DNA from: Candidatus Bathyarchaeota archaeon B26-2
GTDB lineage: Archaea; Thermoproteota; Bathyarchaeia; Bathyarchaeales; B26-1
DNA length: 48,845 bases
Direction: 5' to 3'
NCBI GenBank assembly: GCA_001593935.1
Contig: LUCE01000006.1
Location: forward strand, 1 to 48,845
Part shown: piece by piece, positions 39,963-47,562 of the stretch
Numbering within the stretch: position 1 is the first letter of the stretch
How the letters are laid out: every line of letters starts with the position of its first letter
Notes under the pieces: generated by a model
The model's database searches: none
What the model was told of the DNA's origin: nothing
What the model saw: only the letters and a program-made list of their open reading frames with translations
Program-made: the position numbers and the translations under genes

Positions 39963-41257
39963 CCCTTGAACCTCTCCTCTACAGATAAGGCATGGTTTGG
40001 GAGGCCCTCCGCTTCAGCCAAGGCTCTTATTGCATCCCTAACCTTAGAGAGTCCCTCCCTAGAGCACTTGACGATGTTCAACCTCTTAACGAAGTCTAGG
40101 ACCGAGAGGCCTGAATAGACTCGTCCGAACCCGCCTGTCGGAAGGACATGGTTGACTCCGAGGCAGTAATCGCTTGCCGAGGCAGGGGTGTACCTTCCTA
40201 TGAGCACGAGTCCGGCGGCGTTGATCCTCTCAGCGACCTCTAGAGGTTCATCTACCATAACCTCTAGGTGTTCCGGTGCAAACTCGTTCACGAAGGAGAT
40301 GCACTCATCGAGGTTCCTCAAGACCAAGATCAACCCGTTTCTTGAGAGAGCCTCCTCAACAGTTCCCGCTCGGGGCGACGACCGGACAACCTTCTCGAGT
40401 TCCCTCTGAACCTCGTCCGCAAGCCTACTGGAGACCGTGACCAAGATCGAGTATCCCCAGACTCCATGCTCAGCCTGAGAGACCATGTCCAAGGCCACAA
40501 GCCTAGGGTCAGCTGACTCGTCGGCCAGTATGAGGACCTCGCTTGGGCCTGCTGGGAGGTCTGTGGCGATGTCTCTCGAGACTAGGAGCTTAGCGGCTAG
40601 GACGAAACGGTTTCCCGGCCCCACGACCTTCTCGACGGGCCTTATCGAGCCTGTTCCGTACGCTAGGGCTGCTATCGCTTGGGCTCCTCCAATCATGTAG
40701 ACCTCGTCCGCGCCGCAGATGTCACTCGCCACGAGGGTTATGGGTTCAACCTCGCCTCTCTTCTTCGGAGGAGTACAGACCACAACCCTTGGAACTCCCG
40801 CTACCTTCGCTGGAGTAACCGTCATGACGACTGTGCTCGGGTATGAGGCTTCTCCTCCCGGAACGTAGCATCCAACGCTTCTAAGTGGTCTAGTTCGGCT
40901 GTACACCTCTACGCCTTCGTACTTGACCTCGAAGTTCAGCCGCTCCAGTAGGTTCTTCTCAAAGAGTTCAACCCTGCTCTTGGCAAGTTCGATGGCTGAA
41001 ATCTGTTCTTCGCTCACAAGATCGTAAGCCCTTGCTACGTCTTCTTCTGTCACTTTTAGGCGGTCGGCCTCCAAGGAGACACCGTCGAACTTCTCAGTGA
41101 ACTCGATCAAGGCTGAGTCACCTCGTTCCTTCACGGTTTCGATTATTCTCCGGACTTGGACTTCGAGGTTGGATGGAAGAGATCCTCCGATTCTGACTTG
41201 TCTCTCTTCGAGCAGGTCCTTAGGCGGTGCCGAGGTTCTCCGTATTTTAAGCTTCAT
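39959..41257 (-). CDS. hisD: Histidinol dehydrogenase
   Basis: Zinc enzyme oxidising histidinol to histidine in two NAD-dependent steps. Motifs: VGCYVPGGEASYPSTVVMTV, KVVGPGNRFV, DLPAGPSEVLILAD, the zinc ligands in DMVSQAEHG, and the catalytic Glu-His pair in NEFAPEHLEV; GVNHVLPTGG is near the C-terminus. 432 residues from ATG 41257 (MKLKIRRTSAPP). A frame from 41287 adds ten residues read from hisG sequence. Overlaps hisG by eleven bases. Confidence 0.95.
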   Translation of the reverse strand: MKLKIRRTSAPPKDLLEERQVRIGGSLPSNLEVQVRRIIETVKERGDSALIEFTEKFDGVSLEADRLKVTEEDVARAYDLVSEEQISAIELAKSRVELFEKNLLERLNFEVKYEGVEVYSRTRPLRSVGCYVPGGEASYPSTVVMTVTPAKVAGVPRVVVCTPPKKRGEVEPITLVASDICGADEVYMIGGAQAIAALAYGTGSIRPVEKVVGPGNRFVLAAKLLVSRDIATDLPAGPSEVLILADESADPRLVALDMVSQAEHGVWGYSILVTVSSRLADEVQRELEKVVRSSPRAGTVEEALSRNGLILVLRNLDECISFVNEFAPEHLEVMVDEPLEVAERINAAGLVLIGRYTPASASDYCLGVNHVLPTGGFGRVYSGLSVLDFVKRLNIVKCSREGLSKVRDAIRALAEAEGLPNHALSVEERFKG

Positions 41258-42254
41258 CTCTCGCTCGTTTCTCCTCTCGAGCATCACTCGGCGTTACCTG
41301 ATCTAGCAAGAGAACTTGTCTAGGCTCGTAGACGACGAGTCCTTGGGCGAGCCTCCTCAGTGTGGGCAGACACTCCAAGAAGAGGTCTCGATCTATAACT
41401 GTGTTCACGGAGTACCATCCTTTCTCCGAGAGCGGTGAGATCGTAGGCCTCTTCAGGGCTGGTAGGCTCTTCAAGAGTTCTTGGAGGTTCTCCTCGGAGA
41501 CGTTGACGAAGATGTGGAACTTCTTCCTTCCGTCGACGACTCCTTTTAGGAGAGTTAGTATGTCGTATATCTTCTCTCTCTTCATTGGGTCTTTAAGGGA
41601 GTCTCTGTTCGCGATTAGGACTGCTGTAGACTCCATTATAGTCTCGACGGCCTTGAGGTTGTTCTCTTCGAGTGAGGTCCCGGTCTCGACGACGTCGACG
41701 ATTGCATCCGCGTCCTCAGGGGGCTTCGCCTCGGTGGCTCCAAAGGAGAGGTAGATGCTGACCCGTTCGTTTACACCCTTTCTCCACCACGGGGTCACCA
41801 GGAGCGGTTCTGAACCTTGGAAGAACCTCCTATAAACCGGGTTCCTCTTAATGTACTCTGACGTGACGTTTAGATATTCGGTGGACACCCTCACGTTTCT
41901 ACCCTTCGGTATGAACATCTCCAACAGGTCTGAGAGGGAGTTGATCCTCCTCCAAGATTTGGGGACAGCCAGAACCAGTCTAACCTTAGAGTACTCTAGG
42001 TCTAGGAGGACCTCGACGTCTGAACCTGTCTCCTTGACCCAATCTAAGCCTGTTATGCCCACGTCCTGCAGTCCTTCTCCGACGGAGACTGGGATCTCTT
42101 GAGGCCTCAGAACCTTCAACTCGATGTTTGGGTCGTTTATTGCCGGTCGATACGTTCGCTCTCTGCCGGAGATTGTGTATCCTGCCTGCTCAAGTATCTC
42201 GAAGGTAGCTCTCTCGAGATGTCCCTTCGGTACGGCGAACTTGACCTTCACCAT
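41247..42254 (-). CDS. hisG: ATP phosphoribosyltransferase, long form
   Basis: First, feedback-inhibited step of histidine synthesis. VKFAVPKGHLERATFEIL opens the catalytic part; VVETGTSLEENNLK is the PRPP-binding loop. The C-terminal ~80 residues (KKFHIFVNVSEENLQELLK, WYSVNTVIDRDLFLE) are the ACT-like histidine-binding domain of the long form, so no HisZ is needed. 335 residues. It heads the his operon and is preceded by an unusually structured leader. Confidence 0.95.
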   Translation of the reverse strand: MVKVKFAVPKGHLERATFEILEQAGYTISGRERTYRPAINDPNIELKVLRPQEIPVSVGEGLQDVGITGLDWVKETGSDVEVLLDLEYSKVRLVLAVPKSWRRINSLSDLLEMFIPKGRNVRVSTEYLNVTSEYIKRNPVYRRFFQGSEPLLVTPWWRKGVNERVSIYLSFGATEAKPPEDADAIVDVVETGTSLEENNLKAVETIMESTAVLIANRDSLKDPMKREKIYDILTLLKGVVDGRKKFHIFVNVSEENLQELLKSLPALKRPTISPLSEKGWYSVNTVIDRDLFLECLPTLRRLAQGLVVYEPRQVLLLDQVTPSDAREEKRARDEA

Positions 42255-42289
42255 CTCTTACGCATCTCCAAACCCCTTGTTTGATGTAG

Positions 42290-42479
42290 AATGTTGCCGA
42301 GGCAACCGTGAACCGGGGGTAACGTAAGCCCGGACGAGGTTATGAGCCAGAAAGGAGAGCTTTAAGGTTTGGGGTAACTTGAACCTAAAGAAATTGGAGG
42401 TCACCGCGGGGCTAACGGACCTAGCGCGGATGAACGTAACCGCCCCTTGTGAACTCGACCCCTCACTTCACATCACTGC
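42290..42479 (-). ncRNA. Candidate structured leader RNA of the his operon
   Basis: From the predicted start near 42479 to about 42290 the transcript could fold into consecutive hairpins (window coordinates): 42449-42471 (GTGAA/TTCAC), 42426-42443 (GCGG/CCGC), 42404-42429 (CCGCG/CGCGG plus GCTA/TAGC), 42360-42390 (CTTTAGGTT with one bulge), 42313-42333 (CCGGG/CCCGG) and 42293-42306 (GTTGCC/GGCAAC). The second and third share bases 42426-42429 and exclude each other. Several loops contain GTTAC followed by C's. I recognise no known RNA class. A leader that senses histidine state, or an independent RNA, are both possible. Confidence 0.4.
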
Positions 42480-42500
42480 CTTACAGTGAAATGTCGATCT

Positions 42501-42510
42501 AGATATAAGT
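42501..42510 (-). promoter_or_regulatory. TATA box of the his operon
   Basis: Minus strand ACTTATATCT; start expected near 42479. A perfect inverted repeat, CACTG-CCTTA-CAGTG (42474-42488), overlaps the predicted start site and could be an operator. Confidence 0.45.
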
Positions 42511-42647: not shown

Positions 42648-42678
42648 AATATCTTCTCCCATTAAGGTGAAGGTTTCC

Positions 42679-42963
42679 ATGGGTAGGGCAGCCTATAAGG
42701 TTGAAGGCGGCAAGCTCATAAAGGTTCAACTTGAAGAGAGGGATGGGAGGATCGAGAAGGTTAGGATCATGGGCGACTTCTTCCTCCATCCCGAGGATTT
42801 GATAGAGGAGATTGAGCGGGACCTCGTTGGGAAAGCCCTAGAGGAAGGGGTCCTAGCCTCATCCATAGAGGCTTTGATTGAGGAGAGGGGAGCAACTTTA
42901 CTAGGGGCTTCCCCACGGGACATCGCGAGGTGCATAATCATGGCCAGCGAGGAGGGCCGTTAG
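42679..42963 (+). CDS. lplB: Lipoate-protein ligase accessory (C-terminal) subunit
   Basis: 94-residue separate version of the LplA C-terminal domain, as in Thermoplasma LplB. Recognisable: YKVEGGKLIKVQLEE, IRIMGDFFLHPED-like (seen as VRIMGDFFLHPEDL), and the closing SPRDIARCIIMA. It is required with LplA for activation or transfer of lipoate to acyltransferase or GcvH proteins. ATG 42679 is preferred to GTG 42667, since the ribosome binding site lies between. lplA follows two bases after its stop. Confidence 0.87.
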   Translation: MGRAAYKVEGGKLIKVQLEERDGRIEKVRIMGDFFLHPEDLIEEIERDLVGKALEEGVLASSIEALIEERGATLLGASPRDIARCIIMASEEGR

Positions 42964-42965
42964 AT

Positions 42966-43736
42966 ATGGTTGAGAAGTGGAGGCTACTCGACACAGGGTT
43001 GAACGATGCCTTCTACAATATGGCTTTGGATGAGGCAATCTCGGTCGCTAGGTCTAAGAACCTCGTCCCGAACACGGTGCGCTTCTTCAGGTGGGAGCCT
43101 TCAGCCGTCTCGATAGGGTATTTCCAGAGCATGGAAGACGAGGTTGACTTGGCCGCTTGTGAAAGGATGGGCGTCGACTACGTTAGGAGGGTGACGGGTG
43201 GCGGAGCCGTCTACCACGATAGAGACGGAGAACTCACATACAGCCTGATCGTGAAGGAGGACCACAGGCTGATCTCTAGGGACGTGCAGAAGACGTACGA
43301 GGTTCTCTGCTCAGGTCTTGTGAAGGGGTTGAGGCTCCTAAAGGTTCCAGCCGAGTTCAAGCCGATTAACGATATAGTGGTCGGTGGAAAGAAGATATCC
43401 GGGAACGCTCAGACGAGACGGTTCGGGGTCGTTCACCAACACGGCACCATACTCAGAGATGTAAACCCGTCTTTGATGTTCACTCTGCTGAAGGTTCCGA
43501 GCGAGAAGATACGTGACAAACTGATAAGGGCCGTAGAGGAGAGGGTGACTTCCATAAACCGGTATCTGGGGAGGGAAGTCAGTTTTGAGGAGTTGAAGGC
43601 TGCTCTGAAAAGGGGTTTTGAAGAGGCCTACCGTGTGGAGCTTGTCCCCGGGAACCTTACGGAGTTCGAGGAGCGGCTTGCCTCGAGGCTTAAGGCTGAA
43701 AAATACTCTACGCGAGAGTGGAACTTTAAGAGGTAA
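42966..43736 (+). CDS. lplA: Lipoate-protein ligase A (catalytic subunit)
   Basis: 256-residue ligase of the BPL/LPL fold. Motifs: RFFRWEPSAVSIGYFQ, YVRRVTGGGAVYHDRDGELTYS (RR(V/P)(T/S)GGGAVYHD is the family signature) and the catalytic lysine in DIVVGGKKISGNAQTRR. Forms a two-part enzyme with LplB. Start ATG 42966; a frame from 42930 reads lplB sequence. The 3' end overlaps the convergent gene by 11 bases. It implies lipoylated proteins in this organism, although no lipoate-dependent complex is in the window. Confidence 0.93.
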   Translation: MVEKWRLLDTGLNDAFYNMALDEAISVARSKNLVPNTVRFFRWEPSAVSIGYFQSMEDEVDLAACERMGVDYVRRVTGGGAVYHDRDGELTYSLIVKEDHRLISRDVQKTYEVLCSGLVKGLRLLKVPAEFKPINDIVVGGKKISGNAQTRRFGVVHQHGTILRDVNPSLMFTLLKVPSEKIRDKLIRAVEERVTSINRYLGREVSFEELKAALKRGFEEAYRVELVPGNLTEFEERLASRLKAEKYSTREWNFKR

Positions 43737-47429: not shown

Positions 47430-47562
47430 GGGCCCGTAGCTCAGCAAGGCAGAGCGGCGGACCGACTTTCACCGACCTTCCGTAAGCCGGGTCGAGGCTC
47501 TTAACATCCCTAGACTGAGGGAGACCCGTAGGTCGGGGGTTCAATTCCCCCCGGGCCCGCCA
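47430..47562 (+). tRNA. trnK: tRNA-Lys (CUU) with two introns, CCA encoded
   Basis: The mature molecule is assembled from three exons: 47430-47460, 47497-47503 and 47524-47562. Acceptor GGGCCCG/CGGGCCC, D stem GCTC/GAGC, anticodon stem GCGGG/CCCGT, loop CTCTTAA (anticodon CUU), variable AGGTC, T arm GGGGG-TTCAATT-CCCCC, discriminator G and encoded CCA. Intron 1 (36 nt, 47461-47496) lies in the anticodon stem at 30/31, equivalent to 29/30 because of a shared G. Intron 2 (20 nt, 47504-47523) is at the canonical 37/38. Without removing both, neither the stem nor U33 can form. I did not verify the bulge-helix-bulge motifs. A TATA-like TTAAGTAA lies ~30 bases upstream. Confidence 0.88.

Follow-up and report, generated by a model that had tools for sequence, protein, structure and literature searches.

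The hisG leader of Candidatus Bathyarchaeota archaeon B26-2 raises the question of how a stretch of this kind could act on the gene that follows it. hisG, the first gene of the his cluster, encodes ATP phosphoribosyltransferase and lies on the minus strand (41247-42254) of the window, by which we mean the whole 48,845-nt stretch of contig LUCE01000006.1 that was analyzed. The gene was assigned by NCBIfam TIGR00070 (above cut-off) and by the Pfam domains HisG and HisG_C, and its best named relative is found in Candidatus Bathyarchaeota archaeon B26-1 (88% identity). A TATA-like box (CTTATATC, 42502-42509, minus strand) for the hisG transcript is separated from the gene by a leader of ~210 nt, which runs on the minus strand from about 42480, the probable transcript start, down to 42255. 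The first-pass annotation had described this leader as a row of stem-loops unfamiliar from archaeal his genes. It was rightly singled out and the leader is present as described, with short inverted repeats that can be drawn by hand, but the stems do not rise above chance (see below). Divergent from hisG, beginning at 42667, lies a lipoate-protein ligase gene pair (42667-43736, plus strand), in which the C-terminal domain is encoded by a gene of its own (Pfam Lip_prot_lig_C) that precedes the catalytic gene. Elsewhere in the window (47430-47559, plus strand) Rfam gave a 130-nt tRNA match that was missed by ARAGORN, as expected of an intron-containing archaeal tRNA gene.

Reading the leader as coding sequence revealed a short open reading frame (ORF) on the minus strand (42401-42466), whose start coincides in position with the start codon of orthologues. 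It begins with GTG, encodes VRGRVHKGRLRSSALGPLAPR and ends at a TGA (42403-42401); a Shine-Dalgarno (SD)-like AGTGATG, which presumably assists initiation, lies 5' of the start (42471-42477, minus strand; RGTGRTG or GGAG-like in orthologues). Two similar elements follow on the same strand, which we regard as putative frameshift units. Unit 1 (42449-42463) reads AGG GGT CGA GTT|CAC, i.e. an SD-like stretch, a spacer, a slippery GTT and a His codon, and unit 2 (42430-42444) reads GGC GGT TAC GTT|CAT and is read in frame only by a ribosome that has slipped once by +1 at unit 1. Two codons past the His codon of unit 2 the intermediate frame is closed by a TAG (42421-42423, minus strand), at which a ribosome would end upon failure of the second slip. 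The final frame, reached after two +1 slips, spans 42258-42431 on the minus strand with 57 open codons and terminates at a TAA (42260-42258), leaving 3 nt to the hisG ATG. The "GTTACC-like" repeats noted earlier correspond in part to this tandem unit (..GTTCAC.. and ..GGTTACGTTCAT..), which is conserved in orthologous leaders.

In orthologous hisG upstream regions the conserved block keeps a constant distance to the TATA box, which lies 44-50 nt upstream of unit 1. A sequence-only model of the block had matches in 76 of the order's 163 genomes, almost always a single one in each, and all leaders examined among these matches were located upstream of hisG. The conserved unit can be written as RGNGAY-NNN-NTT-CAY (SD-like stretch, spacer codon, slippery NUU, slow His codon), with identical SD-like spacing in both units, the SD-like stretch being defined by its sequence. 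Unit 1 begins directly after the start codon (ATG in 48, GTG in 18, TTG in 11 and CTG in 1 of 78 leaders), so that its CAY is read as His at codon 6 of the short ORF. Thus 77 of 78 leaders start with ATG, GTG or TTG, and the sole CTG leader carries an in-frame TTG one codon upstream. The ORF comprises 12-26 codons among orthologues. Unit 1 exhibits an NTT codon in the P site (GTT 64, ATT 13, CTT 1) and CAT or CAC in the A site in all 78 leaders, and NTT-CAY was likewise found at unit 2 in 73 of 73 two-unit leaders. While the encoded residue varies (GTT, ATT, CTT, TTT), the P-site codon invariably ends in T, and this is the base required for re-pairing by one position. In Bathyarchaeia the two units are spaced by 19 nt; as 19 equals 1 modulo 3, the CAY of unit 2 is a His codon solely in the +1 frame.

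For the frame test, 78 leaders were read from the start of the short ORF and a +1 slip was applied at each NTT|CAY. Without a slip none of the 78 leaders read through to hisG, with exactly two slips 71 of 78 arrived there, and with exactly one slip five did (L059, L061, L062, L132, L162), which are exactly those with a decayed unit 2. The two exceptions were L125 (stop at -21) and the duplicated leader L099. L170, which has a stop at -19, also departs from the general rule. In L099 (hisG leader of genome G159) a tandem duplication of ~126 nt breaks the final frame, making it the single large exception. The stop of the intermediate frame lies 0-2 codons after the His codon of unit 2 in 69 of 73 leaders. 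With one representative per genus the predicted final frame was open in 20 of 20 genera and each of the two other frames in 0 of 20, for which a joint shuffle null gave ~1e-24. Stops of the final frame cluster about the hisG start (commonest positions +10, +5 and +11).

Within leader family f7 the downstream region contains stops at 0.7% of the codons in the final frame compared to 9.3% and 8.7% in the others, and His codons amount to 0.1% (2 in 1,566) compared to 2.1% and 2.8%. The final frame of this family shows no codon-position bias, which indicates that it must be readable by His-starved ribosomes while the product itself is immaterial. Outside f7 the avoidance of His is weak (1.5%), and the window's own final frame contains 2 His in 57 codons. 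A long third-frame ORF starting from its own upstream GTG was considered and rejected; it is open in f7 and blocked by TAA elsewhere, though the downstream part stays open. Two slips account both for the open third frame of f7 and for the TAA-blocked leaders.

Other families of the phylum possess one unit each, and in nearly all of them hisG is reached via the +1 frame (L171-L177, L185-L187, L218, L219); inspection of the sequences showed that two-unit leaders recur in L184 and L201. Reading by hand further revealed that HisG itself is encoded in the +1 frame in L193, L194 and L209. This frame lacks an ATG, GTG or TTG start in L194 and L209, both of which may contain assembly errors; most surveyed genomes are metagenome assemblies. 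L209 carries ACC-CAC instead of NTT at the site, where re-pairing to CCC would also be allowed.

We consider it likely, with a probability of roughly 0.88, that the hisG leader works as a translational switch that senses histidine and is composed of two programmed +1 frameshift units in series. Initiation would occur at the GTG at 42466, and the ribosome would encounter the slippery GTT followed by CAC with the G-rich, SD-like stretch lying a fixed distance behind it. With plentiful charged tRNA-His it would continue in the 0 frame and terminate once 21 codons have been read. Under scarcity of His-tRNA the A site would stay empty and the P-site tRNA could move from NUU to UUC, placing the ribosome in the +1 frame, where unit 2 would pose a second identical choice and a failed slip would lead to termination within two codons. 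After two slips the ribosome would enter the third frame, open up to the hisG start and ending overlapping or beside the ATG, and its arrival would promote hisG translation by coupling and/or protect the transcript from factor-dependent termination. We infer the ribosomal slip, its dependence on scarcity of the cognate aminoacyl-tRNA and the way in which arrival raises hisG expression. Two units in series would provide a low background and a steep response. Since hisG in the window has its own ATG, HisG could formally be made without the slip, whereas TrpE appears to depend on it.

Genome-wide pattern searches, in which a TATA-like box had to precede a cassette, found cassettes of the same kind before other genes of amino acid metabolism. 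Only matches with the cassette in a leader were used; ordinary matches within genes were also obtained (L252, L262, L266, L267, L279, L282). The most extensive set precedes trpE, where 56 of 57 genomes in the order-wide survey had a TGG (Trp) cassette in the correct frame. A blind pattern search picked up TGG cassettes before trpE in 12 genomes, where the +1 frame encodes full-length TrpE. The P-site codon is NTT in 56 of 56 trpE cassettes, and the SD-like stretch is weaker (G-rich RGG-DAY). In 31 of 56 cases the trpE frame contains no ATG, GTG or TTG ahead of the conserved ILES motif, and the same holds for L275, L280 and L283; in genomes without such a start, production of TrpE seems to require the slip. 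The genomes compared here establish, at the level of sequence, that units, frames, stops and cognate codons recur in many of them and that another start is absent for trpE. The sole surveyed trpE leader without a cassette (L331, genome G082) carries CTTGAC in place of CTTTGG.

Genes for tRNA-Cys are preceded by a TGC or TGT cassette in five genomes, the tRNAs being confirmed by ARAGORN, and the window's own genome is the sixth: on its contig C51 (L375) a leader reading ATG AGG GAT AAC GTT TGC (encoding MRDNVCPTTSKSVNEVP and a stop) lies before tRNA-Cys(GCA). In L255 the tRNA-Cys gene is followed by SepCysS. The +1 frame of the Cys cassettes extends over 41-97 codons, sometimes through the tRNA-Cys gene (L255, L256, L251, L257, L265), which suggests control via transcript survival or termination and not via translation. 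As the target is untranslated, these cases hint that shielding from termination contributes. Furthermore, leuS (leucyl-tRNA synthetase) carries a CTC cassette with the gene in the +1 frame in two genomes (L253, L254), and proS has the Pro codon CCA in the slow position in one genome (L165/L286), which was reached via a weak model match.

Two further leaders were noted in the window's own genome. On contig C37 (L369) ATG GGG TAT CGC TTT ATC GAG TGA (MGYRFIE and a stop) has an Ile codon in the slow position, and its +1 frame continues for 499 open codons into a LeuA/citramalate-synthase-like enzyme; the case is ambiguous, as a GTG of the same +1 frame lies seven codons upstream. On contig C44 (L371) ATG GGG AAT CGC CTT GGC TAG (MGNRLG and a stop) follows AAGGAG, with a Gly codon in the slow position and a +1 frame, 306 codons long, whose product resembles a carbon-nitrogen hydrolase; it may be due to chance, the TTG of CTTGG being in that frame.

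From the genes collected so far (His, Trp, Cys, Leu, Pro) it appears very probable that a general +1 frameshift cassette with a cognate codon at the start of the message, which can be re-targeted, serves Bathyarchaeia and related archaea as a charged-tRNA sensor for amino acid synthesis, tRNA and tRNA-synthetase genes, with the his leader stacking two of them for a sharper response. The closest known relative in design is the bacterial prfB (RF2) +1 site, AGG-GGG-UAU-CUU-UGA, which consists of an SD-like AGGGGG, one spacer codon, CUU and a slow UGA. In analogy, the hisG unit RGG-GAY-NNN-NUU-CAY places an SD-like stretch at fixed spacing before a re-pairable P-site NUU and a slow A-site codon. 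As in prfB, the 0 frame is short, the +1 frame carries the putative functional continuation and the logic would be self-correcting. In contrast to RF2, which uses UGA to sense RF2 itself, the slow codon of the archaeal cassettes is a cognate sense codon (CAY, TGG, TGC/TGT, CTC or CCA in the A site) that would sense charged tRNA before genes other than prfB. Further differences are the two units in series with a coupled downstream gene at hisG and the several amino acids that are served.

Among other explanations, a classical leader peptide, in which stalling at the His codon of the short ORF alters RNA folding or access to the SD without any frameshift, has the most in its favor, given that the ORF with its His codon is conserved in all leaders and that stalling upon starvation is the known logic of his attenuation. 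Like the bacterial his and trp leader-peptide attenuators (Rfam His_leader and relatives), the hisG leader places a short ORF with a cognate codon before a biosynthetic gene, and starvation is expected to increase expression. Unlike in these attenuators, each unit carries a single His codon, there is no terminator/antiterminator pair and the output would be a change of frame: the conserved part of the start-frame ORF contains one His, at codon 6, and no His run in 78 of 78 leaders, and neither a terminator-like site nor alternative terminator/antiterminator hairpins were found in the leader. Although the ORF is real, synonymous change was not significant in a column-permutation test (42 of 300 permutations as good), and for this reason the peptide itself does not appear to be what is conserved; a plain leader peptide was rejected on this ground. 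Stalling alone moreover leaves unexplained the invariant NTT, a unit 2 in another frame with a nearby stop, an open final frame that tracks the number of units, and trpE in the +1 frame without a start. We therefore regard this explanation as improbable. The earlier guess of an attenuator-like action points in the right direction with respect to the outcome; the means would be the reading frame with its two tandem +1 units and not stems.

Still less probable is a structured RNA, i.e. a riboswitch or hairpin attenuator with mutually exclusive stems that senses histidine, AMP or PR-AMP, as the first-pass annotation had proposed. Short stems can be drawn, but the minus-strand fold of -72.1 kcal/mol equals that of shuffled sequences (-71.7 kcal/mol; z -0.07; 92 of 200 shuffles as stable), and the plus-strand fold gave z -1.34. 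Rfam yielded no match to the leader, T-box included, at the gathering threshold or at E<=10, and RNAalifold on 48 aligned orthologous leaders returned only -1.5 kcal/mol, leaving neither a covarying aptamer structure nor any conserved fold to which exclusive stems or a ligand-binding riboswitch could be attributed. The hand-drawn stems around both repeats fall out of register across species. Bases 42426-42429, which two stems had been claimed to share, lie directly 3' of unit 2 and adjoin the stop of the intermediate frame. RNase P or another known RNA was dismissed as well, with the RNase P RNA located elsewhere and the Rfam search negative, and so was the idea that the units pair with an anti-element farther downstream or with the start of hisG (mean z: unit 1, -0.88; unit 2, 0.05). 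A structured RNA would predict neither frame-specific openness nor the His codons nor cognate codons at other genes.

What speaks for RNA structure beyond drawable stems is a loose pairing in f7, where a stretch ~65 nt before hisG matches unit 1 with 6.9 of 9 pairs compared to 6.7 upon permutation (4 of 5000 permutations as good), a weak signal from one family. In these leaders (L105, L113, L115, L137 and others) a conserved ..TTAGGCGCAAYCCC.. is complementary to GGGATTGCG of unit 1, and some matching changes occur, e.g. in L141 and L094. This stretch might tune slipping. With the T-box the cassette shares the principle of one device re-targeted by a change of codon before amino acid synthesis and aminoacyl-tRNA synthetase genes. 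The T-box, however, senses by binding of tRNA to the leader RNA and the cassette would do so via the ribosomal A site, and neither a Stem I specifier loop nor an antiterminator T-box sequence was detected by Rfam.

A DNA operator, with a repressor on the two direct repeats 19 bp apart just 3' of the transcription start, was considered for the conserved blocks ~10 bp apart, the similarity of the repeats and their fixed distance from the TATA box, and was abandoned as extremely improbable after the frame, stop and cognate-codon tests, as it explains neither start codons, stops, open frames and in-frame 3-nt deletions (L059-L062) nor A-site codons matching the amino acid of the downstream gene (trpE, leuS, proS, tRNA-Cys).

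Frameshifting within leader ORFs has precedents, since telithromycin induces it in the ermC leader, and a frameshift in pheL has been treated as incidental (PMC5009743). As in these cases, a slip in the hisG leader would let ribosomes continue and affect the downstream gene; in contrast to the drug-induced or incidental events, sites, frames and stops are conserved at hisG and the cognate amino acid would serve as the signal. That ribosomes shift frame at codons read by a starved tRNA has been laboratory knowledge for decades. According to a 2016 review of frameshifting, no example was known in which such hungry-codon frameshifting serves starvation-specific products (PMC5009743), and a 2021 review of archaeal recoding lists a single reported programmed frameshift, of the -1 type (PMC8211752). 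A search of open-licence papers for frameshifting at hisG or trpE found nothing relevant. Conservation of the present candidate sites extends across many genera and several amino acids, and trpE is seemingly slip-dependent in many genomes.

The cassette would account for trpE genes that seemingly have no start codon and would allow gene calls in Bathyarchaeia to be corrected, and it offers simple, portable starvation sensors. For the archaea that carry it, it would represent a counterpart of attenuation and T-boxes in which the reading frame may be sensor and switch at once.
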